Of a stretch of 43,917 nucleotides of DNA, positions 18,175 through 31,436 are shown piece after piece; the stretch's first letter is position 1; every line of letters starts with the position of its first letter. The translations under genes were made by a program, and so were the position numbers. This DNA comes from Clostridia bacterium. GTDB taxonomy: Bacteria; Bacillota; Clostridia; Acetivibrionales; DSM-27016. Location of the stretch: assembly GCA_026414765.1 (NCBI GenBank), contig JAOAIJ010000020.1:1-43917 (forward strand). Reading direction: 5' to 3'. Under the pieces are notes generated by a model. It was given only the letters and a program-made list of their open reading frames with translations. It was not told where the DNA came from and made no database searches.

Positions 18175-20103
18175 ATGATTAAGCAAGATATTTCAAGTAT
18201 TATACTTAAGGATAGGGAAGAACGCAAAAACAGAAGTTTTGAAGGTTCATTCCTGCAATATCTTGATATGGTAAAAGAAAATCCTGACGTATCAATGCTG
18301 GCACATCAGAGAATGTACAATCTGATAACCTCCCAGGGCGTAGATGTGATAAAGACTGATGAAAATCCAAGATTGAGAAGGATTTATGGCAATGATATCA
18401 TAAAAAAATATAAATTCTTTGAAGAGGATTTTTTTGGGATAGATAAAACGATTATGAAAATTGTGAGGTATTTTCATTCAGCAGCGATGGCAGGTGAAGA
18501 AGCAAGGCAGGTGCTTTATCTCGTTGGACCGGTTGGTTCAGGTAAATCATCATTAATGGAAGCTCTAAAGAAGGCCTTGGAAATGAGTTCTCCAGTCTAT
18601 GCACTAAAAGGCTGTCCAATGAGAGAAGAACCTTTACATTTGATTCCTAAGCATTTAAGAATGCAGTTTGAAGAGATTCTCAACTTGAAAATCGAAGGAG
18701 ATCTTTGTCCGGTCTGCAGATATAGGCTGAAAAATGAGTTGAAGGGTGAGTATGAAAAATTTCCTGTTGAGACAGTAGGATTTTCAATAAGATCAAGAAA
18801 GGGAATAGGAGTTGTACCTCCTGTAGACCCAAATAATCAGGATACCAGTGTGCTCATAGGAAGTGTAGATATTTCTAAAATTGACCTATATCCAGAGGAC
18901 GATCCAAGGGTTCTATCACTAAATGGTGCTTTTAATGTAGGTAATAGGGGTTTGGTAGAGTTCATAGAAGTGTTTAAAAATGAGACTGAATACCTCCATA
19001 CAATGATTACAGCGACTCAGGAGAAATCTATTCCGTCGCCCGGAAAGGGTTCCATGATATACTTTGATGGAATAATTCTGGCTCACTCAAATGAAGCGGA
19101 ATGGAACAAATTTAAGTCCGATCATACAAATGAAGCTATACTTGACAGAATAGTAAAAGTAGAAATTCCCTACTGCCTTGAACTTGATGAAGAAATAAAG
19201 ATATATGAAAAGATACTCAGGAAAAGCAAATTCAAAGCTCATATTGCTCCACACACAATTGAAGTTGCTTCAATGTTTGCCATACTCACACGTTTGACTC
19301 CCTCAAGCAAGATAGATCCGATGACGAAGCTGAAAATATATAACGGTGAAGAAATTGTAGAAAAGGGTATGACAAGAAAGATCGACATATTTGAACTGCA
19401 TGAGGAAGCTCAGAGAGAAGGAATGACGGGAATATCCACAAGATTCATAATGAAAGCACTGGATACTGCATTATCTGAATCGGAACATAATTGTATAAAC
19501 CCTATTTCAGTTATGGAGACTTTGATTAGGGCTGTAAAGGAGCTGGGAATAGGTGAGGAGGAAAAAGAACGGTATTTACGCTTTATTCAGGATAGTATAA
19601 AGAAAGAATACAACAAGTTGCTTGAGAAAGAAGTGACAAAAGCATTTATTCACGGATACAGGGAGCAGGCTGAGAGTTTGTTCAACAACTATCTGGACCA
19701 TGCAGAAGCTTTTGTGAACAAGACAAAGATTAAGGATTCAAACACAGGAGAAGAACTGGAACCTGACGAAAAGTTTTTAAGATCGATAGAAGAGCAAATC
19801 GGGATCACAGATTCTGCAGCAAAGGGCTTCAGGTCTGATGTTACTGCATATATGTTTTTTGTCTTGCGCAACGGAGGAAAACTTGATTTTGACAGCTATG
19901 AGCCTTTGAAGGAAGCTATAGAGAAAAAATTAACGGTTTCTGTAAAAGAACTGAGCCGTATTATTACCCAAGCAAAAGTCAGAGATAAGGATCAGAACGA
20001 AAAGTATAATGCTATGGTTGATGAAATGAAGAAAAACGGATACTGTGACTGCTGCTGCAATGTTATACTCAAGTACGCAGCAAATAATTTGTGGAAAGAC
20101 TGA
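18175..20103 (+). CDS. prkA: Serine protein kinase PrkA (AAA+)
   Basis: A 642-residue PrkA protein, normal length. An AAA+ domain with Walker A GPVGSGKS (118-125) is followed by a zinc-like CPVCRYRLKNE region. The C-terminal part has the PrkA kinase-like domain (IHGYREQAESLFNNYLDHAEAF), and the end is Cys-rich (YCDCCCNVILKYA). In Bacillus it is made in the mother cell and supports sporulation. AGGGGG precedes the ATG. It heads the prkA-yhbH-spoVR operon, which corresponds to E. coli yeaG-yeaH-ycgB. Confidence 0.97.
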   Translation: MIKQDISSIILKDREERKNRSFEGSFLQYLDMVKENPDVSMLAHQRMYNLITSQGVDVIKTDENPRLRRIYGNDIIKKYKFFEEDFFGIDKTIMKIVRYFHSAAMAGEEARQVLYLVGPVGSGKSSLMEALKKALEMSSPVYALKGCPMREEPLHLIPKHLRMQFEEILNLKIEGDLCPVCRYRLKNELKGEYEKFPVETVGFSIRSRKGIGVVPPVDPNNQDTSVLIGSVDISKIDLYPEDDPRVLSLNGAFNVGNRGLVEFIEVFKNETEYLHTMITATQEKSIPSPGKGSMIYFDGIILAHSNEAEWNKFKSDHTNEAILDRIVKVEIPYCLELDEEIKIYEKILRKSKFKAHIAPHTIEVASMFAILTRLTPSSKIDPMTKLKIYNGEEIVEKGMTRKIDIFELHEEAQREGMTGISTRFIMKALDTALSESEHNCINPISVMETLIRAVKELGIGEEEKERYLRFIQDSIKKEYNKLLEKEVTKAFIHGYREQAESLFNNYLDHAEAFVNKTKIKDSNTGEELEPDEKFLRSIEEQIGITDSAAKGFRSDVTAYMFFVLRNGGKLDFDSYEPLKEAIEKKLTVSVKELSRIITQAKVRDKDQNEKYNAMVDEMKKNGYCDCCCNVILKYAANNLWKD

Positions 20104-20171
20104 TAAAGCAATTGATAATATTTATCTTATAGTTGTCGGTTCTTTATCATTTATGCCGGAGGCGAAGCATA

Positions 20172-21425
20172 ATGGCGATTTTTAGAGAGTTTAGCAGCAG
20201 CGGGAGGGACCGGTCTTCAGAAGACAGGCGGAGACATAAAGAATTGGTTGAGGAATCTATCAAGAAAAACCTGGGTAACATTATTGCAGAAGAAAGCATT
20301 ATCGGGCAGAGCAGGGATAAGAAAATAAAAATCCCCATAAAGGGTATAAAAGAGTATCAGTTTATATACGGAAAAAACGGGCCTGGAGTAGGTTCAGGCG
20401 ATGGTACTGAGAAAAGAGGGGATAAAATCGGTGAGGATAAATCCGGGCAAGGTAGTAATGGTAACGGGCAGGCAGGTAATCAGGAAGGTGAAGATGTATA
20501 TGAGACTGAGGTTACAATTGAAGAGCTTGTAAATTATTTATTTGATGATTTGAACCTTCCGGATATAGATAAGAAAAAAATCGCAGAGATTGAATCAATA
20601 AAAAGTATAAAAAAAATAGGATACCAGCGTAAAGGTATTCCACCACGACTGGCAAAGAGGCGGTCTGTCGTAGAGAAAATAAAAAGAAGGCAGGCGTATA
20701 ACAGGTCGCAGGAAGAGTTTGAAGCACAAAACGAGGGAAATATTGATGATTTATATAGCGATTATGATGGAGCTGCAGATGATCAGAATATGGAGGCTCG
20801 TAGCGAAGCTACAGTAACAAAAAGGTTTCCTTTTATGGAAGATGACTTAAGATATCATAGAGTCAGGGAGGATCATAAAAAGGATTATAATGCTGTAGTT
20901 ATATGCATAATGGATGTTTCAGGCTCTATGGATCAGACCAAAAAATACATGGCCAGGAGTTTTTATTTCCTGCTATACCAATTTATCAGACTTAAGTATT
21001 CTAATGTTGAAGTTGCTTTTGTAGCTCACACAACTACTGCAAAAGAGGTAAATGAAGATGAGTTTTTTCACAAAGGGGAATCTGGGGGGACCTACATAAG
21101 CAGTGGGTATGAAAAGGCTTTAGAAATAATTGAACAGAGATACAACCCGACAAGTTGGAATATATATGCTTTTCACTGTAGTGACGGAGATAATTGGACA
21201 GAAGATAATAAAAGAGCAATTGAATATGCCCAGAAGCTGTGTGATGTTTGCAATTTGTTCGGATATGGCGAAATTGTTCCAGGTTATTACTCTTCCAGCA
21301 GTACAATTAAATCAGATTTTCAGAAGAATATAAGGCATAAAAACTTTGCTATTGTTACCATGACCAAGAAGGAAGATGTTTATAGCGCCCTGAAAAAGCT
21401 TCTTGACAAAGAAAATGAAGATTAG
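20172..21425 (+). CDS. yhbH: Sporulation protein YhbH (DUF444)
   Basis: A 417-residue DUF444 protein. The N-terminus [17 protein letters not shown] is the family hallmark. A Gly/Lys-rich linker (~75-110) leads to a VWA-like domain with the MIDAS motif DVSGSMD at about residue 250, followed by [15 protein letters not shown] and HCSDGDNW. The function is unknown but linked to PrkA; in Bacillus it is needed for normal spore formation. The start is the ATG at 20172 behind GGAGG; a TTG 39 bases earlier has no ribosome site. It is 68 bases after prkA. Confidence 0.94.
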
Positions 21426-21514
21426 GAAGCCAGTTGGAATTTGGTAAACAATAATGAGATAATATGAGTTTACAATAAAATCGGTGACTGGTAATTTCGG
21501 TAGGGGGTGTTATT

Positions 21515-22903
21515 GTGGCGGATTACAGTATAAGAGAACTGGAGAAATGGAATGAAAAGATAGAAGAAATTGCGAAAGAGGCAGGACTTGATTATTATGA
21601 TCAGGAATTTGAAATAATAAGTTATGAAGATATGATGGGATATGAAACATATATCGGTATGCCTTCGCATTATCCGCATTGGAGTTATGGAAAAGCTTAT
21701 GAAAGAATCAAGACCCTCAACAGATATAACTTATCAGGGTTAGCTTATGAGATGGTGATAAATGCAAATCCGTGCATAGCATACCTGATGAAGGATAATA
21801 CATTGCTTCTTCAGATACTGACCATTGCACATGTTTATGGACATAATGATTTTTTTAAGAACAACAGAATGTTTAAGATTGGCACCAGAGCGGACTATAC
21901 GCTAGAGATGTTTAAGAATCATGCAAACAGAATCAGAGCCTATATTGCCGATCCGGGTATCGGATATAAAAAAGTCGAGAGGATACTGAATGCAGCACAT
22001 GCTCTTAAATACCAAACATCCAGATTAGTTGGAGAAAAGAGGATTCCGGAAAATGAAAAAAGGAAGGCAGTTCTTGAACGTTATAGTAAAGAAGACTATG
22101 ATTTCCCTCTTTTAAATCCCAAAAACCAAAAAACGGATACAGGCGTAGAGCTTAATAAGATTCCAATAGAGCCTGAAGAAAACATACTTTATTTTTTATC
22201 AAAGTATGGGAGGTTAAGTGAGTGGGAAAAAGACATGCTGGATATTGTCAGAGAAGAAACTACGTACTTTGTTCCCCAAATTGAAACTAAAATAATGAAT
22301 GAAGGATGGGCAAGCTTCTGGCATTACACTATACTAAATAAACTTGAACTGACACAAGGGTTGCATTTTGAATTTCTTAAGAGACATAATCAGGTAATAA
22401 GGCCGCATGAGGGACGTATTAATCCATATTATATAGGCTTTAAGATTTTTGAGGATTTAGTCAGAAAATACCCTGACAACCCAAATAAGATTTTTGAAGT
22501 TCGTGAGATTGAAAGAGATCAGTCCTTCCTGAGGAGATATCTGACTTATGAATTGTGCAATGAGATGAATCTTTTTGAATACATAAAGGTAGACCGTGAT
22601 TATGTTATTTCTGAAGTGCCGGATGAGGAAGGATGGAAGACAATAAGGGATACACTTGTATTTTCAACGGGTATGGGTGGGATACCTAACATTGTTGTGG
22701 ATGAATGGGTTCAGAAAGACAATACACTGATACTTGAGCACAAGTACGACGGAAGGGAGCTGGAATTAAACTATGCTTATGAGACTTTGAAGCATATAGC
22801 AGACTTATGGGACGGAAAAGTTATGCTTATAACATTTCTGGATAATAAGCGCAAGATAGTAATCTGTGATGAACAAAAGAGGATAACGATGACAAATACT
22901 TAA
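21515..22903 (+). CDS. spoVR: Stage V sporulation protein R (SpoVR)
   Basis: A 462-residue SpoVR family protein with the typical YDQEFEIISYEDMMGYETYIGMPSHYPHWSYGK-type start (positions ~26-60) and the conserved HVYGHNDFFKNN, NEGWASFWHYT and GLHFEF motifs. The His/Glu-rich motifs suggest a metal site, but the biochemical role is not known. In Bacillus it affects spore cortex formation. It starts with GTG at 21515 after GGGGGTG. It is the last gene of the operon, and its stop overlaps a GNRA-type terminator. Confidence 0.96.
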   Translation: MADYSIRELEKWNEKIEEIAKEAGLDYYDQEFEIISYEDMMGYETYIGMPSHYPHWSYGKAYERIKTLNRYNLSGLAYEMVINANPCIAYLMKDNTLLLQILTIAHVYGHNDFFKNNRMFKIGTRADYTLEMFKNHANRIRAYIADPGIGYKKVERILNAAHALKYQTSRLVGEKRIPENEKRKAVLERYSKEDYDFPLLNPKNQKTDTGVELNKIPIEPEENILYFLSKYGRLSEWEKDMLDIVREETTYFVPQIETKIMNEGWASFWHYTILNKLELTQGLHFEFLKRHNQVIRPHEGRINPYYIGFKIFEDLVRKYPDNPNKIFEVREIERDQSFLRRYLTYELCNEMNLFEYIKVDRDYVISEVPDEEGWKTIRDTLVFSTGMGGIPNIVVDEWVQKDNTLILEHKYDGRELELNYAYETLKHIADLWDGKVMLITFLDNKRKIVICDEQKRITMTNT

Positions 22904-23095: not shown

Positions 23096-23935
23096 ATGCA
23101 GGACTTAAATAATCAGGATTATTATGAAAAAGTTTCTGAAACTGCGAAGTACATAAAAGAAAGGATAAAAGAAAAACCAGTAATCGGAATAATTTTGGGA
23201 TCTGGTCTGGGACCATTGGTAAATCATCTTGAGAACCCGGAAGAGATAGACTACACTGAGATACCTCATTTCCCGGTCACCACTGTAGAGGGACATGCCG
23301 GTAAGCTTGTGTCTGGAAAGATCGGTGGAAAGACTGTATTGGTTATGAAGGGTAGATTTCATCATTATGAAGGATATGATATTTCCCAAGTTATTTATCA
23401 TATCAGAGTTTTTAAGCTTCTCGGAATAAATGATCTTCTTGTTACCAATGCGGCAGGAGGAATAAATAAGGAATTCAAATCAGGAGCGTTGATGCTTATC
23501 AAAGATCATATCAGCTTTTTTGCACCCTCACCCTTAAGGGGGAAAAATGTAAATGAGTTTGGTGTAAGATTCCCTGACATGAGTGAGGCGTACAGCAGAA
23601 GTTTGATAAATATTGCCAAAGACACTGCAGGTAAGTTGGGAATTGATGTACAGGAAGGTATATATGCATTTGCTCAGGGACCCATGTATGAAACTCCTGC
23701 AGAAATACGTGCACTTTCTATACTGGGGGCTGATGCGGTAGGCATGTCTACCGTACCTGAAGTCATAGCAGCCCGACATGCCGGAATGAGAGTACTCGGC
23801 ATGTCGTGTATTACCAACATGGCAGCCGGTATACTGGATCAACCTCTAAACCATGAAGAGGTAATGCAGACAGCAAAAAGAGTAGAGGAGAAATTTACAA
23901 ATCTGGTAAAAGCTATTGTTGCAGAATGGCAATAA
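23096..23935 (+). CDS. punA: Purine nucleoside phosphorylase (family 2, inosine/guanosine)
   Basis: A 279-residue trimeric-type PNP. Motifs: phosphate loop GSGLGP at 37-42, FPVTTVEGHAGK, RFHHYEGY, the LVTNAAGGIN signature, FAQGPMYETPAEI and LGADAVGMSTVPEV. The Glu in YETPAE and the Asn in ITNMAAG belong to the purine site of 6-oxopurine-specific enzymes. It splits inosine or guanosine with phosphate into base plus ribose-1-phosphate. GGAGG precedes the ATG. Its position near the sahH-like and deaminase genes would let it take the inosine released in deamination-first SAH recycling. Confidence 0.94.
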   Translation: MQDLNNQDYYEKVSETAKYIKERIKEKPVIGIILGSGLGPLVNHLENPEEIDYTEIPHFPVTTVEGHAGKLVSGKIGGKTVLVMKGRFHHYEGYDISQVIYHIRVFKLLGINDLLVTNAAGGINKEFKSGALMLIKDHISFFAPSPLRGKNVNEFGVRFPDMSEAYSRSLINIAKDTAGKLGIDVQEGIYAFAQGPMYETPAEIRALSILGADAVGMSTVPEVIAARHAGMRVLGMSCITNMAAGILDQPLNHEEVMQTAKRVEEKFTNLVKAIVAEWQ

Positions 23936-24047
23936 AATTGATAAGCTAAATTTACCATAACAAGTTTTTACTTACCGGTAATTCTCCATATGCTTTTCAG
24001 CAGCTGGTATGGGCATATTGGTTTGATTATTCGAAATGGGGTGCGGA

Positions 24048-24326
24048 ATGAAGCATTTATTTGCGTCTGGGGAACATATATACAAAAAGAATGTAAAACA
24101 GTTACGGGACGTCAGTTTTGAAGCTGAATACCTGGTATATGACGAAGTTGCTGAAGATACTGAGTTTGAAGCAGTGGGACGTATTGAAGATAAAAATGTA
24201 TCTGTGAAATTCAGAATAAAAGGAGACAGTTACAGCGACATAAAGTTTAGACATACGGTTAAGATTCTGATGCAGTCGGACATATTACTTGCGGATTGGG
24301 AGAATTATGAAATAGTGTATCTGTAG
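24048..24326 (+). CDS. Hypothetical 92-residue protein
   Basis: A small acidic protein rich in beta-strand-like segments (VSFEAEYLVYDEV, FEAVGRIEDKNVSVKFRIKG, FRHTVKILMQSDILLADW). There is no signal peptide or membrane segment. The start is the ATG at 24048; an in-frame ATG at 24036 is also possible, and neither has a strong ribosome site (GGGGTGCGG precedes the later one). It ends at a terminator. It lies between punA and the sahH-like gene. I do not recognise it. Confidence 0.6.
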   Translation: MKHLFASGEHIYKKNVKQLRDVSFEAEYLVYDEVAEDTEFEAVGRIEDKNVSVKFRIKGDSYSDIKFRHTVKILMQSDILLADWENYEIVYL

Positions 24327-24388: not shown

Positions 24389-24514
24389 TTTTTCATTGTA
24401 ATTGCAAAATGTATTAAAAACACACAAATGCAAAAACTTTGTATTGATTAAGTTTTATGACAGCAAACAGTGTAGGTTTGAATGAATTTAAGTGAATATA
24501 GATAAAAATAAGTG

Positions 24515-24543
24515 TTGATAAATTAATATAATTTGTATACAAT
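24515..24543 (+). promoter_or_regulatory. Sigma-A promoter of the sahH-like operon
   Basis: TTGATA and TACAAT with a 17-base spacer. Start of transcription is expected near 24550, giving a leader of about 88 bases. Confidence 0.7.
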
Positions 24544-24594: not shown

Positions 24595-24614
24595 TTAGTA
24601 CTTGTTTGTACTAA
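24595..24614. promoter_or_regulatory. Inverted repeat in the sahH-like leader
   Basis: TTAGTAC-N6-GTACTAA is a perfect 7-bp-arm repeat between the promoter and the ribosome site. It could be an operator or an mRNA hairpin. Its core resembles, in inverted order, the TTACT/AGTAA arms before the deaminase gene. Confidence 0.45.
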
Positions 24615-24637: not shown

Positions 24638-25885
24638 ATGAAAAGTGTTATACGTGACATCAATATGGCGGATTCAGGAAGAAAGAAAATTGAATGGGTT
24701 AGAAAAAACATGCCGCTTCTTCGGAGCTTAGAAGAGGAATTTTCAAAAGAACAACCCTTTAAAGGCATAAATGTGACCGTATCGGTTCACCTGGAAGCGA
24801 AGACTGCATATCTGGCTAAGGTAATAGCCGCAGGGGGAGCACATGTATCCGTTACGGGAAGCAATCCTCTTTCTACACAGGATGACGTTGCCGCAGGTCT
24901 TGCAGCTGACGGGCTTGATGTATATGCGTGGTATAATTCAACCAAGGAAGAGTATGCTGAACATTTGAAGATGGCTTTGGGAGATAAGCCCAACATAATA
25001 ATAGATGATGGTGGCGACCTTATTCATCTTTTGCACACAACCGAAAAACATCTTCTTCCAAGTGTTATAGGAGGATGCGAAGAGACTACCACCGGTGTTT
25101 TGAGACTGAAGGCCATGGAAAAGGAAGGTGCTCTTTTATTTCCGATGGTTGCAGTAAATAATGCATACTGCAAATATTTGTTTGACAATCGCTATGGAAC
25201 CGGACAGTCCGTATGGGATGGGATTAACAGAACAACTAACCTGATAGTTGCGGCTAAAGATGTAGTAGTAATAGGTTATGGCTGGTGTGGAAAAGGTATA
25301 GCAATGAGGGCAAAAGGGTTAGGTGCAAATGTAATAGTCTGTGAAATAGATCCTATTAAGGCAACAGAGGCTGTTATGGATGGTTTTAAAGTCATGAAGA
25401 TGGATGAGGCAGCAAAACACGGTGACATATTCGTAACTGTAACCGGGTGCAGCAGAGTAATATATGAAGATCATTATAAGGTAATGAAAAATGGAGCAAT
25501 ACTTTGCAACGCAGGGCACTTTGATGTTGAAATATGCATTCCTGAGCTTGAAAAGCTTGCTGTAGAGAAGAAAGAACAGAGAAGGAATATTATGGGTTAT
25601 AAGATGGCAGACGGAAGGTGGATAAATCTGCTTGCTGAAGGAAGACTGGTAAATCTTGCAGCGGGAGACGGACATCCTGCAGAAATTATGGATATGAGTT
25701 TTGCACTTCAGGCTCTTAGCGCAAAGTATGTACTGGAAAATCACAAGAGCCTTGGCAAAAAAGTAATAGATGTACCTTCAGAGATAGACCATAGGGTTGC
25801 AAATATGAAACTTGATTCATGGGGTATAAAAATAGATAAGCTGTCTGAAGAACAGAAAAAATATCTTGAGAGTTGGACGGAATAA
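24638..25885 (+). CDS. S-adenosylhomocysteinase family; probably S-inosylhomocysteine hydrolase
   Basis: A 415-residue NAD-dependent hydrolase of the SAHH family. NAD loop: [19 protein letters not shown]; catalytic and substrate motifs: [34 protein letters not shown] and CNAGHFD. It releases homocysteine from an S-nucleosylhomocysteine. The base-binding motif, HMTxET or HMTxQT in classical SAHH, reads H51-L-E53-A-K55-T56: Thr57 and Glu59 (human numbering) are replaced by Glu and Lys. That is the archaeal/Thermotoga form and fits a 6-oxo base. The C-terminal Lys-Tyr tail of human SAHH is replaced by [12 protein letters not shown]. It is 2 bases upstream of the HTH-methyltransferase. Confidence 0.88.
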
Positions 25886-25887
25886 AT

Positions 25888-26706
25888 ATGGAGAAGGAAA
25901 TACTTACATTGGATGAAGCTGCACAGCTGTTTGGAGTAAGTGTAAAAACCTTTATAAAGTTGCTGAAAGAGGATAAGGTCCCTGCAAGAAAAATCGGACG
26001 CGAGTGGCGTTTTAGCCGGAATGCACTTATAAGCTGGCTGTCGGCAGGTGATTCTCAAACTTATTCGGCAAGTGAAGGTGAACTAAAGGAATTCTTTAAT
26101 CAGGTTGCGCCAGAGTGGGAAGAAATCAGCCGTGAGTATTATGATCAGTCTATCAAAAACAGGATAGTAGATATGGGAATACTGATGAAAAATATGACTG
26201 TGGTTGATCTCGGGTGTGGAGACGGGTATATTTCCAGAGCTGTATCGGGAATGGTTGATAAGGTTATTGCAATAGATATTTCCAGCAAAATGCTGGAGCT
26301 ACTCAATAAAAAGGCGGCTGAGGCCGGAATAAAGAATATTGAAACCATAGAAACAGAAGCTCAGGAAGTGCCGTTGAAGGATTCTATAGCTGATGTTGTT
26401 TTCGCCAGTATGTTCCTGCACCATATAGAAGAACCTGAAGAGATCATTCAGGAAATGTACCGCATTGTAAGACCTGAGGGTATAGCGGTAATTGCAGATT
26501 TTCAAAAGCATAAAAATGCGGAAATGAAAAAAAGAATGCATGACGTCTGGAGCGGTTTTTCTACATCAGAAGTAAAAAAATGGTTTATAAATGCAGGATT
26601 CAGCAATATAAATATTGAAATTTTGGAGCATGAAAACAACTACTCTTCAGAATACAACAATATAGGTGAAAAACCGTCGGTATTCATATTAACTGCAGAA
26701 AAGTGA
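25888..26706 (+). CDS. Excisionase-type HTH fused to SAM methyltransferase
   Basis: A 272-residue two-domain protein. Residues 6-54 are a MerR/excisionase-type winged HTH (LTLDEAAQLFGVSVKTFIKLL, RKIGREWRFSRNALISWL). Residues ~70-270 are a class I methyltransferase: motif I VVDLGCGDGY (105-114), acidic end of strand 2 at D130, PLKDSIADVVFASMFLHHIEE and a motif III-like YRIVRPEGIAVIADF. It starts at the ATG at 25888, 2 bases after the sahH-like stop, so translation is probably coupled. A link with SAH removal suggests either a methyltransferase that binds DNA or a regulator that senses SAM/SAH through its methyltransferase fold; no substrate can be read. Confidence 0.88.
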   Translation: MEKEILTLDEAAQLFGVSVKTFIKLLKEDKVPARKIGREWRFSRNALISWLSAGDSQTYSASEGELKEFFNQVAPEWEEISREYYDQSIKNRIVDMGILMKNMTVVDLGCGDGYISRAVSGMVDKVIAIDISSKMLELLNKKAAEAGIKNIETIETEAQEVPLKDSIADVVFASMFLHHIEEPEEIIQEMYRIVRPEGIAVIADFQKHKNAEMKKRMHDVWSGFSTSEVKKWFINAGFSNINIEILEHENNYSSEYNNIGEKPSVFILTAEK

Positions 26707-26721
26707 GCTGGAGGAGGGTGT

Positions 26722-26761
26722 ATTACTATAGTAATCGGTATTTTTACATTACTTAAAGTAA
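26722..26761. promoter_or_regulatory. Two TTACT..AGTAA palindromes before the deaminase gene
   Basis: ATTACTATAGTAAT (26722-26735) is a perfect 14-bp palindrome and TTACTTAAAGTAA (26749-26761) is a near-copy with the same arms, offset by 26 bases. They lie between the HTH-methyltransferase gene and the deaminase gene and could be its operator. Confidence 0.5.
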
Positions 26762-26815
26762 GCAGCCTCCTTATTTATTTTATATTATTGTTAATCAAAT
26801 ATTTGGAGGTTTATT

Positions 26816-28123
26816 ATGAAAATTCTGATAAAGAATGCGGACATAATTACAATTGATGATGAGAGAATGTTTATAAATAATGGCAATGTGGCTATAGAAA
26901 ACGGATACATAAAATTTGTCGGAGCAGAAGCAGATGTTACTGGCTTTAATGCAGACAGGGTAATTGATGGCAGCAACAAGCTGGTGCTGCCGGGACTGGT
27001 CAACTCCCATACTCACAGTCCGATGACCATATTCCGTAACTACGCAGATGATCTTGCACTAGAGGAATGGCTTTTTAAGAAGATAATTCCTGCAGAATCG
27101 AAACTTACCCCTGAGGATGTTTATTGGGGTGCAATGCTGGGTATAACTGAGATGATCAAGTCAGGTACAACGTGTTTTGCGGACATGTATCTGCATATGG
27201 ATGAGGTAGTTAGAGCAGTACAGGAATCAGGAATCCGTGCAAATATCAGCAGGGGGCCGATACAGTCAAGTGTGAGAACTAAATCGGGCCTTGAAGTAGA
27301 CGCTGATAGCTGTACAGGTTTCTTTAATAATTGGAATAACAAGGAGAATGGGCGAATCAAGGTATATGTCGAAATTCATTCGGTATACCTTTTTGATGAA
27401 GAATCTATAAGAGATGCAGCTGCATTAGCAAAGCAGCTTAATACCGGTATACATATTCACCTGGCGGAGACACTTGGCGAAAATGAGACGAGTATAAACA
27501 AATATGGGGCAGATCCGATTGAGATAAGCGAGAGATTAGGAATTTTTGATGTTCCTGTTTTTGCTGCACACTGTGTTCAGCTATCGGACAAGAACCTTAA
27601 AATGCTAAAAGAAAGAAATGTAAATGTATCACATAACCCTACCAGCAACTTAAAATTAGGAAGTGGAATAGCAAGAGTGCCTGAAATGCTGGCGGAAGGA
27701 ATAAATGTATCCCTTGGGACTGATGGAACTGCGAGTAATAATAATTTGAATCTGATTGAAGAAATGCATATTGCAGCTTTGATCCATAAAGGGGTTAGCA
27801 AAGATCCGACTTTGGTAAATGCTGAACAAGTGCTGAAAATGGCTACAGTAAACGGAGCAAAGGCTATTGGTTTTGGTGATGAAACAGGAGTTTTGAAGCA
27901 AGGAATGAAAGCTGATGTTATTCTGATAGATATGGATAAACCTCATTTGAATCCAAGGAATAACTTAATGTCTGCTGTTGTATATTCTGCTCAAGCTTCA
28001 GATGTAGATACGGTTATTATTGATGGGAAAATCGTTATGGAGAACAGAAAATTGATAACCATAGATGAAGAAAAAGTAAAATATAAAGTGAATGAAATTA
28101 CCCGTAGAATACTGGGCAGTTAA
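26816..28123 (+). CDS. mtaD: 5-methylthioadenosine/S-adenosylhomocysteine deaminase
   Basis: A 435-residue amidohydrolase (TrzN/AtzA/MtaD group). Metal and active-site motifs in order: NSHTHSPM (HxH), LEEWLFKKIIPAE, HIHLAET, FAAHCVQ, and the Asp in LGTDGTASNNNLNL. A C-terminal composite beta-sandwich (GMKADVILIDMDKP, VIIDGKIVMENRK) completes it. It removes the 6-amino group of MTA, SAH or 5'-deoxyadenosine as ammonia, giving the inosyl form. GGAGG precedes the ATG. With the HLEAKT-type SAHH homologue and a 6-oxopurine PNP close by, it fits the first step of deamination-first SAH recycling. Its homologue DadD does the same in methanogens. Confidence 0.93.
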   Translation: MKILIKNADIITIDDERMFINNGNVAIENGYIKFVGAEADVTGFNADRVIDGSNKLVLPGLVNSHTHSPMTIFRNYADDLALEEWLFKKIIPAESKLTPEDVYWGAMLGITEMIKSGTTCFADMYLHMDEVVRAVQESGIRANISRGPIQSSVRTKSGLEVDADSCTGFFNNWNNKENGRIKVYVEIHSVYLFDEESIRDAAALAKQLNTGIHIHLAETLGENETSINKYGADPIEISERLGIFDVPVFAAHCVQLSDKNLKMLKERNVNVSHNPTSNLKLGSGIARVPEMLAEGINVSLGTDGTASNNNLNLIEEMHIAALIHKGVSKDPTLVNAEQVLKMATVNGAKAIGFGDETGVLKQGMKADVILIDMDKPHLNPRNNLMSAVVYSAQASDVDTVIIDGKIVMENRKLITIDEEKVKYKVNEITRRILGS

Positions 28124-30230: not shown

Positions 30231-31277
30231 CTAGCTTACTGCACCCGGATGGATCTTCTCCCGTACCAAATGTAGACTGTCCAGGAAAGTCTGCATAGGG
30301 GTTTTGCCTTTACACCTTTTGCCCTGATGTGTACGTTCTTCGTTATACTGAAGCATATAAAAGTCTAAATCTTCCTGCAGATGTTCAACCGTTTTATATA
30401 CTGTTTTTCTGAATGCTACCTTATAAAATTCATTTAATAGTGTTTGATTAAAACGCTCACAAATACCATTGGTTTGAGGACTTTTAGCCTTAGTCATTGT
30501 ATGCTCAATATCATTCATCTGTAAGAACAGCTCATACAAATGCTTTTCTGGAGCACCATAATATTCTGTTCCTCTATCAGTTAATACTCTCATTACCGGT
30601 ATCATGTGACTTTCAAAGAATGGTAGAACTCTCTCATTTAATATATCTGCAGCCGTAACAGGAATTTTTGCAGTGTACAATTTAGCAAATCCCACAGCAG
30701 AGTACGTATCAATGACAGTCTGCTGATATATTCTGCCGACTCCTTTAATATATCCCACATAGAATGTATCTTGTGCAATTAAGTATCCAGGGTGTTGAGT
30801 ATCAATTTCATCTATAGATATATTCTTTTCCTGCTTTGCTTTTTCTAAAGCAACAAGTTGTTCTTCCGTGTAGAGAATACCTTCTTTTGCAGCTTTCTCT
30901 TCAAGCTTTTTTAGCCTCTTTTCAAATGTCTCTATGGAATTTCTGAGCCATATGGATCTTATTCCACCGGCGGATACGAGCACTCCTTGCTTTCTGAGTT
31001 CATTACTTGCTCTAAGCTGACCATATGCAGGTTTCTCATAAGCCATCCTTACTACAGCTTCTTCAATTTCAGGGGCTACTCTGTTCTTTATACAAGGCTT
31101 TTTACGGGTTTTATCCTTTAACCCTTCAAGTCCTTGTTCTGCATAAGTTTTCCTTATGTCGTAAAAATGCTGCCGGCTAACTCCATGAATTTTACATGCT
31201 TCACTTACGTTTCGAAGATATTCTGCCAACTCTATTAAACTCATTTTATTCTTAACTATACGTTCTTGTATTGTCAT
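30231..31277 (-). CDS. IS481 family transposase
   Basis: A 348-residue DDE transposase. N-terminal HTH (LAEYLRNVSEACKIHGVSRQ, FYDIRKTYAEQGLEGLKDKT) and a second HTH region (KPAYGQLRASNELRKQGVLV). The integrase core has the catalytic Asp in LIAQDTFYVGYI, the second Asp in VLTDRGTEYYG and the Glu in NGICERFNQTLLNEFY. The frame is intact, so the element may be mobile. It starts at 31277 behind AGGAGGAG; the longer frame upstream has no ribosome site. Confidence 0.92.
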   Translation of the reverse strand: MTIQERIVKNKMSLIELAEYLRNVSEACKIHGVSRQHFYDIRKTYAEQGLEGLKDKTRKKPCIKNRVAPEIEEAVVRMAYEKPAYGQLRASNELRKQGVLVSAGGIRSIWLRNSIETFEKRLKKLEEKAAKEGILYTEEQLVALEKAKQEKNISIDEIDTQHPGYLIAQDTFYVGYIKGVGRIYQQTVIDTYSAVGFAKLYTAKIPVTAADILNERVLPFFESHMIPVMRVLTDRGTEYYGAPEKHLYELFLQMNDIEHTMTKAKSPQTNGICERFNQTLLNEFYKVAFRKTVYKTVEHLQEDLDFYMLQYNEERTHQGKRCKGKTPMQTFLDSLHLVREKIHPGAVS

Positions 31278-31436
31278 AATTAAAATCTCCTCCTTACAAT
31301 CAAGATGTTGTCCAGAGGAGATATTGCCCAAACATTATTCAGATACTGTCAAGTCAAGTTAATTTTCTTACAGAACAGACATTTTTGGTGTAAAGGCTAC
31401 TATGTTAGTACAGTTTAGGCATAAAGCGAGTAATAG

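Follow-up and report, generated by a model that had tools for sequence, protein, structure and literature searches.

The window analyzed here, the whole stretch of 43,917 nucleotides, comprises positions 1 to 43,917 of contig JAOAIJ010000020.1 from a Clostridia bacterium of the order Acetivibrionales (GenBank assembly GCA_026414765.1). Its forward strand carries a gene cluster in which a helix-turn-helix (HTH) domain is fused to a methyltransferase domain, in a gene placed among those predicted to remove S-adenosylhomocysteine (SAH). The features of the cluster are as follows.

23096-23935, forward strand: purine nucleoside phosphorylase (PNP) of the inosine/guanosine type (TIGR01700, 362.6 bits against a cut-off of 293.35), a neighbor in many of the clusters.
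24036-24326, forward strand: 96-aa ORF without a known family, seen in a few other clusters too (L042, L046 and L100).
24483-24522, forward strand: predicted operator of four tandem 10-bp direct repeats, TGAATTTAAG TGAATATAGA TAAAAATAAG TGTTGATAAA, a footprint common to relatives.
24515-24543, forward strand: predicted operon promoter (−35 TTGATA, 17-nt spacer, −10 TACAAT), from a consensus scan and homologous sites.
24638-25885, forward strand: S-adenosyl/S-inosyl-homocysteine hydrolase (SAHH; NF004005, 687 bits against a cut-off of 275), with HLEAK (HxExK) at residue 51.
25888-26706, forward strand: HTH_17-methyltransferase fusion (HTHMT), predicted regulator, with an ATG start and 272 aa.
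25903-26046, forward strand: HTH_17 domain (excisionase/BldC-like winged HTH), residues 6-53, from Pfam and fold matches to RdfS (8dgl) and BldC (6ama).
26185-26622, forward strand: class I methyltransferase domain, approximately residues 100-245, predicted SAM/SAH sensor, from Pfam and invariant motif residues.
26711-26772, forward strand: hairpin with a U-rich tail in the gap that separates the regulator gene from mtaD (minimum free energy −24.1 kcal/mol).
26816-28123, forward strand: MtaD-type amidohydrolase (MTA/SAH/5'-deoxyadenosine deaminase family) from Pfam and NCBIfam, its exact substrate being a prediction.

The ORF at 24036-24326 gave no Pfam or NCBIfam match at E ≤ 0.001, and the MtaD-type protein reached the cut-off of none among the 25 NCBIfam models listed. 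Further upstream, the region 18175-22903 contains a SpoVR gene (Pfam), beside which lie genes that we take to encode a PrkA-type kinase and a YhbH-like protein; SpoVR stays close to the PNP/SAHH cluster in several genomes. On the minus strand, the ORF at 30231-31331 resembles an IS481-type transposase. The hairpin at 26711-26772 is more stable than expected (z −3.2, with 0 of 200 shuffles as low), is absent from the list of a simple terminator scan, and may attenuate mtaD expression. A SAM riboswitch, considered as an alternative means of control, was not found in the window; elsewhere RF00162 occurs with or without the regulator, being present under stricter filters in 48 of the 58 genomes of the order, mostly once in each. 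The HxExK fingerprint of the hydrolase has been associated with a preference for S-inosylhomocysteine (SIH) (PMC10978960). With MtaD and an inosine-type PNP near this hydrolase, the operon would encode a route from SAH through SIH to inosine and homocysteine, and it is probably an instance of the SIH route in Clostridia.

The fusion gene begins two nucleotides past the SAHH gene (TAA at 25883-25885, ATG at 25888), as the preliminary description had noted. That description had also recognized an excisionase-type HTH joined to a class I methyltransferase with an intact GCGDGY motif, and both assignments were borne out by Pfam, NCBIfam and AlphaFold2. Specifically, residues 6-53 match HTH_17 (E = 1.8e-12; 47.7 bits against a cut-off of 27), the protein scores 39.4 bits with TIGR01764 "excise" (cut-off 28.8), and residues 106-202 match Methyltransf_11 (E = 1.4e-23), with GCGDGY at residues 109-114. 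The AlphaFold2 model (mean pLDDT 87.9) combines a methyltransferase-like fold with a winged HTH and a long helix, and pLDDT drops below 50 in the linker residues 55-62. Foldseek searches with this model matched class I methyltransferases, several of them SAH-bound. With the HTH alone, no match was obtained at E ≤ 0.001, the best being the RdfS excisionase (8dgl) and BldC (6ama) at weak E values of 0.007-0.013; a sequence search of the PDB for a solved relative of the HTH returned nothing useful.

Matches to the fusion protein at E ≤ 1e-20 were found in 31 of 58 genomes of the order, so this is not a chance ORF. The HTH is included in 26 of the 31, among them a copy with an internal stop (G037; in this locus, L060, the stop comes soon after the start, and it was not used as a protein) and one cut by a contig end (G038). 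G035 and G046 hold partial copies in the same gene cluster in which no HTH was found, and the matches in G021, G023 and G051 are other, separate methyltransferases. We counted as regulator-positive 28 genomes, the window genome included; these are the 26 with the HTH plus G035 and G046, which were counted from their partial copies and are in neither the metH nor the metF test described below. PNP, SAHH or MtaD genes lie on the same strand in the fetched neighborhood of 27 of these 28 genomes, in varying order. The exception (G049, locus L046) has only SpoVR and the 96-aa ORF nearby. The same two-domain protein recurs beside PNP, SAHH or MtaD genes in other Clostridia, its recurrence next to sahH being a point that the preliminary description had singled out for checking.

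In a search of named genomes, 80 of 137 relatives were kept, of which L254-L285 match the HTH only. Here, 35 of 36 clade-1 loci carry PNP, SAHH or MtaD, many of these loci being genomes already counted in the order and one, L248, having been assigned to clade 1 by its linkage. Clade-1 hosts include, among clostridia, Pseudobacteroides cellulosolvens, Acetivibrio alkalicellulosi, Herbivorax and Anaerobacterium chartisolvens. Beyond the order, 398 further genomes from across the phylum were scanned and yielded another seven two-domain proteins, all of which belong to a second clade. The expectation that homologues would stay with sahH or mtaD therefore holds in part: clade 1 is so linked, but the diverged clade 2 sits by leuC. 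Among ten regulator-negative loci that were fetched, eight (L092-L098 and L101) lack the fusion gene yet still have SAHH with MtaD after it, indicating that the enzymes do not need the fusion gene.

The predicted operator upstream of SAHH consists of repeats with the consensus TGwAnATAAn, the last of the four containing the −35 box. The promoter consensus scan alone found no more promoters than in shuffles; a TTGATA-17-TATAAT layout is seen again at many homologous sites. When 114 upstream regions were compared, at least 20 of 29 consensus positions were present in 22, all of them from fusion-gene loci (91 regions), and the 23 regions of regulator-negative loci reached a maximum of 18. By this measure, 17 of 28 positive clusters reach 20/29 in a PNP, SAHH, HTHMT or MtaD upstream region; those below it are L041, L043, L046, L048, L050, L052, L060, L061, L062, L064 and L066, some of which are fragmentary. 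Four-repeat chains scoring at least 17, a threshold used without a shuffle control, precede the regulator, SAHH or PNP gene in 28 of 36 named clade-1 loci. Across the 58 genomes, the 29-bp pattern occurs with at most one mismatch in 12 places, of which eleven fall at HTHMT, PNP or SAHH promoters in regulator-positive genomes, while the twelfth is in a negative genome (G025); as the pattern was drawn from such sites its recall is circular, but its absence from other places is not. The sites 24595-24614 and 26722-26761, which the preliminary description had suggested as operators, were dropped. They are inverted repeats without a counterpart at fewer than two mismatches in the other 113 upstream regions (the third pattern used was one base off the window, and 12-13-base patterns match at two mismatches by chance), and the second lies in the stable hairpin with its U-rich tail.

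The repeats also occur elsewhere in the window genome. A three-repeat pattern with up to two mismatches gave eight matches (one for the reversed control), all at three promoters: three at the metH operon (contig C9, L103), three at the sahH operon and two at metF (C15, L180). A looser 29-bp pattern with up to three mismatches gave seven matches versus three for the control, located at the sahH promoter, at the metH operon and, in five cases, at other genes (L104-L108, judged by eye). Upstream regions were then scanned with a 10-bp position weight matrix (PWM) trained only on 17 SAH-operon promoters, excluding L056 as a near copy of L055, with four units chained at 10-11 bp steps; one strand was scanned for metH and both for metF. 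For metH, the scan ran upstream of a 211-aa gene that no Pfam or NCBIfam model matched and that has metH behind it, on its own strand, in all 24 loci. An array was detected there in 7 of 11 positive genomes (scores of 18.8-34.7, z 5-8 against dinucleotide shuffles) versus 0 of 13 negative genomes, where the score never exceeded 10.6 (Fisher p = 9.5e-4, with the cut chosen after the scores were seen). The four positive genomes without a metH array all belong to genus g4. The metF test took in the 30 stronger of 41 MetF matches and gave higher scores in the positive genomes (20) than in the negative ones (10) (Mann–Whitney p = 2.3e-4; the genomes being related, this value and that for metH overstate independence). 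Arrays with z ≥ 3.2 against dinucleotide shuffles precede metF in 19 of 20 positive versus 1 of 10 negative genomes, the latter being G016 (score 18.9), a 580-contig assembly.

From a genome-wide scan, 20 stretches were inspected, mostly two-register matches or sites conserved between genomes. In these, six positive genomes have an array ahead of metF, and five genomes of family f7 have one ahead of a homocysteine-methyltransferase-like gene, one of these genes being identified by NCBIfam, below its cut-off. A separate long SAHH gene could be examined in five positive genomes (G005, G028, G029, G030 and G048), and in all five an array lies ahead of it (17.4-22.4); these five arrays are on the opposite strand and alike one another, and they were looked up on purpose, with no shuffle control. 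L201 (G016) is outside this count, its SAHH gene being cut by the contig. Stretches from negative genomes (L193-L197; 9.1-17.4) are near genes that appear unrelated by eye, and three from positive genomes, L191 (12.3), L198 (13.2) and L182 (23.3), are not near methionine-cycle genes. The strong L182 array (G030, contig C74) lies amid genes that look phage-like by eye. In G005, an apparent partial SAHH duplication (C2:2444634-2448435) is present beside an intact copy. From the arrays at SAH-operon, metH, metF and SAHH promoters, the predicted regulon comprises SAH removal and homocysteine remethylation.

In family f2, metH promoters share, by eye, a T-rich TTGATTTTTT...ATATATAAT layout with no repeats, whether the fusion gene is present or absent (L132-L136, L138, L141-L142, L145, L147 and L150-L152). 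Some other regulator or element may act at these metH-operon promoters.

The arrays could in principle be generic promoter sequence, that is, AT-rich UP-like elements unrelated to the protein. They are indeed AT-rich and overlap or touch promoters, and the two-mismatch repeat scan is noisy, with control matches in many genomes. However, no repeats were found at the corresponding promoters of relatives without the regulator, bar metF in G016, and the metH and metF arrays of the positive genomes exceed dinucleotide shuffles (seven genomes and 19 of 20, respectively, as above). Moreover, the highest-scoring plus-strand chain anywhere in the locus falls at the gene's own promoter in 11 of the 12 loci of clade 2. 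A generic origin of the repeats is therefore highly improbable. The domains, the gene linkage, the repeat footprint, the wider target set and the association of the repeats with the regulator gene are all direct results of the computation.

Comparison of the two halves of the protein revealed that the HTH is its best conserved part. Mean identity to the window protein over 24 clade-1 rows is 82% for the HTH (residues 5-54) versus 50% for the methyltransferase (residues 100-240), the corresponding values for nine clade-2 rows are 65% and 38%, and the same ranking was obtained in a comparison keeping 31 rows. This is the pattern expected of a DNA-binding protein with a fixed operator. Class I methyltransferase features, namely SAM-binding motif I and the acidic residue of motif II, are present, with no variation at D107, G109, G111, G113 or D130 across all 34 rows (the window protein and 33 relatives, taken from 48 named loci with the methyltransferase part). 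The catalytic-looking LHH, D204, H208 and D219 positions are conserved as well. Together with the SAM motif, these positions would suit an active small-molecule or macromolecule methyltransferase in which the HTH only tethers or dimerizes the enzyme and which is co-localized with SAH-removal genes because it produces SAH; the same C-terminal D-x-W-x-G-F stretch is found in an HTH-less methyltransferase (L067, 36% identity). Such an enzyme does not readily account for conservation that peaks in the HTH, for a repeat footprint that tracks the gene and reaches promoters at other genomic sites, those of metH and metF, or for the retention of SAHH and MtaD without it in 8 of 10 fetched negative loci, and we regard it as improbable.

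The preliminary description had contrasted the fusion protein with SahR, an ArsR-type SAH regulator of proteobacteria, as being of unrelated architecture, and here it needs correction. We fetched SahR-like ArsR/SmtB proteins from Leptospira (beside ahcY/metH), Sphingomonas (metF/metH), Sinorhizobium and Rhizobium (both metF). The Leptospira, Sphingomonas and Sinorhizobium proteins were scanned, and all three contain HTH_5 plus Methyltransf_11. The Sinorhizobium gene is 1023 nt long, as is sahR of Ensifer aridi (PMC8877191), and context and size suggest that the fetched proteins are SahR orthologues. SahR is an SAH-responsive member of the ArsR family found mainly in alpha- and delta-proteobacteria, and the SahR-like proteins scanned share with the window protein the layout of an HTH followed by Methyltransf_11. 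The core SahR regulon comprises sahR, ahcY, metH, metF and metK, and its operator is a 20-bp palindrome (PMC4239095). The window regulator likewise covers the SAH hydrolase gene, metH and metF, as judged by predicted operators, but these are tandem 10-bp direct repeats, and its HTH is HTH_17/excise, with no HTH_5 among the Pfam hits. Given these differences in HTH family and operator, the window protein is not SahR by family, yet it appears to work like SahR. The SahR-like protein of Leptospira also has the C-terminal H..D-x-W-x-G-F stretch of the HTH_17 fusions, which is only suggestive of a common origin. Whether the methyltransferase domains of SahR and of the HTH_17 fusions descend from one specific ancestor was left open by a tree of 38 domains, in which support is 96/92 for clade 2, 95/99 for clade 1 without L248 and 44/77 for SahR, and 15 of 35 inner branches, including the fork joining the groups, are open.

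The HTH domain, by its best fold matches, points to BldC and RdfS. BldC binds AT-rich direct repeats head-to-tail with a spacing of approximately one helical turn (PMC5859096), and head-to-tail oligomers have also been reported for RdfS, at sites described as lacking a consensus motif (PMC11963761). The predicted sites of the window family, at 10-11 bp steps, resemble those of BldC in spacing and differ from those of RdfS in having the repeat TGwAnATAAn. BldC has 68 aa and no effector domain, whereas the window protein has 272 aa with a methyltransferase domain. A search of open-license papers returned no description of an HTH_17-methyltransferase regulator. A further parallel is McbR, a repressor of the TetR family from Corynebacterium glutamicum. 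McbR is inactivated by SAH, so that SAH induces sulfur and methionine genes (PMC2580772); this is the same logic as that proposed here, although operator and phylum differ.

Clade 2 comprises 12 named loci whose proteins are 39-44% identical to the window protein. In 11 of the 12, the gene stands just before leuC, followed in nine of these by leuB, and leuC and leuB accompany all seven clade-2 loci of the phylum search; NCBIfam models above cut-off identified leuC and leuB in L082 and leuD in L085. The fusions directly upstream of leuC are in L237-L245, L247 and L252, and also in L082-L088. Related repeats, e.g., AGAATATAAG, precede the gene in 11 of the 12 loci (PWM scores of 7.6-25.9), L246 having neither the leuC linkage nor a repeat. 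The clade-2 fusion is thus a candidate regulator of the leucine pathway. Some methyltransferases, such as yeast Tmt1, act on 3-isopropylmalate, which makes this compound a possible clade-2 ligand. The link to leuC implies that SAH need not be the ligand of the methyltransferase domain throughout the family, which is thus a set of putative sensors with a methyl-cycle connection in clade 1 alone. In another group of proteins of ∼90-167 aa (L254-L281), mostly from Clostridium and relatives, the same HTH (∼60% identity) precedes an unrelated-looking C-terminal part in which a YKQQR..EKLEFKIFW-type stretch is common; the HTH thus appears as a module combined with different partners.

These findings bear on the ligand of the window protein. 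The same gene could encode a regulator responding to another metabolite of the cycle, i.e., SIH, MTA or homocysteine, much as clade 2 perhaps responds to a leucine-pathway acid. The sister clade does sit at a pathway without SAM chemistry, and the HxExK-type SAHH, MtaD and PNP suggest an SIH route in the window operon. But the SAM-motif residues are invariant, and the regulator and its arrays are kept where the hydrolase is of the SAH-preferring HxTxE or HxTxQ types: other clusters encode HVTTE-type hydrolases, and the separate SAHH genes encode HMTIQ. The regulator is therefore found with HLEAK, HVTTE and HMTIQ enzymes alike, which favors SAH, their common substrate, over SIH as the signal. 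We consider a ligand other than SAM or SAH rather unlikely.

We propose that the product of the fusion gene regulates the transcription of methionine/SAM-cycle genes and would sense SAM/SAH, a reading to which we assign a probability of roughly three in four. The suggestion of the preliminary description that the protein is a DNA-binding regulator of the SAH-removal operon gains support from the linkage, the conserved HTH and the operator footprint at metH, metF, homocysteine-methyltransferase-like and separate SAHH genes. In the proposed mechanism, the BldC/excisionase-like winged HTH would bind the row of AT-rich 10-bp direct repeats, probably by lining up head-to-tail as an oligomer in which each helical turn carries one protomer. 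As read by eye, the arrays run into the −35 box at SAH operons and many metF genes, and in several genomes they lie downstream of it at metH, positions that suit repression. Sitting on the −35 region, or beyond it at some metH promoters, the oligomer would block RNA polymerase. The methyltransferase-fold domain would bind SAM/SAH and act as the sensor, such that the protein would leave the operator as SAH builds up. The freed operator would allow SAH recycling (SAHH or SIHH, MtaD and PNP) and remethylation (MetH and MetF) to be switched on. DNA binding, oligomerization, SAM/SAH as the ligand and repression with SAH as the inducer are the steps that we infer.

SAH inhibits most methyltransferases, and no description of an SAH-sensing protein in these Clostridia was found in searchable papers. 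If the proposal is correct, the protein would be a second example, beside SahR, of an enzyme fold used as an SAH sensor. It comes with a list of predicted targets and with an operator that a single oligonucleotide would suffice to test. More tentatively, and at somewhat below even odds, Clostridia and their relatives may harbor a new modular family in which a methyltransferase-fold sensor sets how far a filament-forming BldC-like HTH occupies successive 10-bp repeats, with an SAH/SAM branch governing the methyl cycle and a leuCDB branch retuned to a leucine-pathway metabolite. On that reading, the logic of SahR would be an independent development, or one with an independently exchanged DNA-binding half, and control would be graded and cooperative instead of being exerted by a dimer on a palindrome. 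The findings also name a likely leuCDB regulator for other Bacillota, and they suggest that a metabolite sensor can be attached to the BldC-type HTH, which is known as a stand-alone oligomer.
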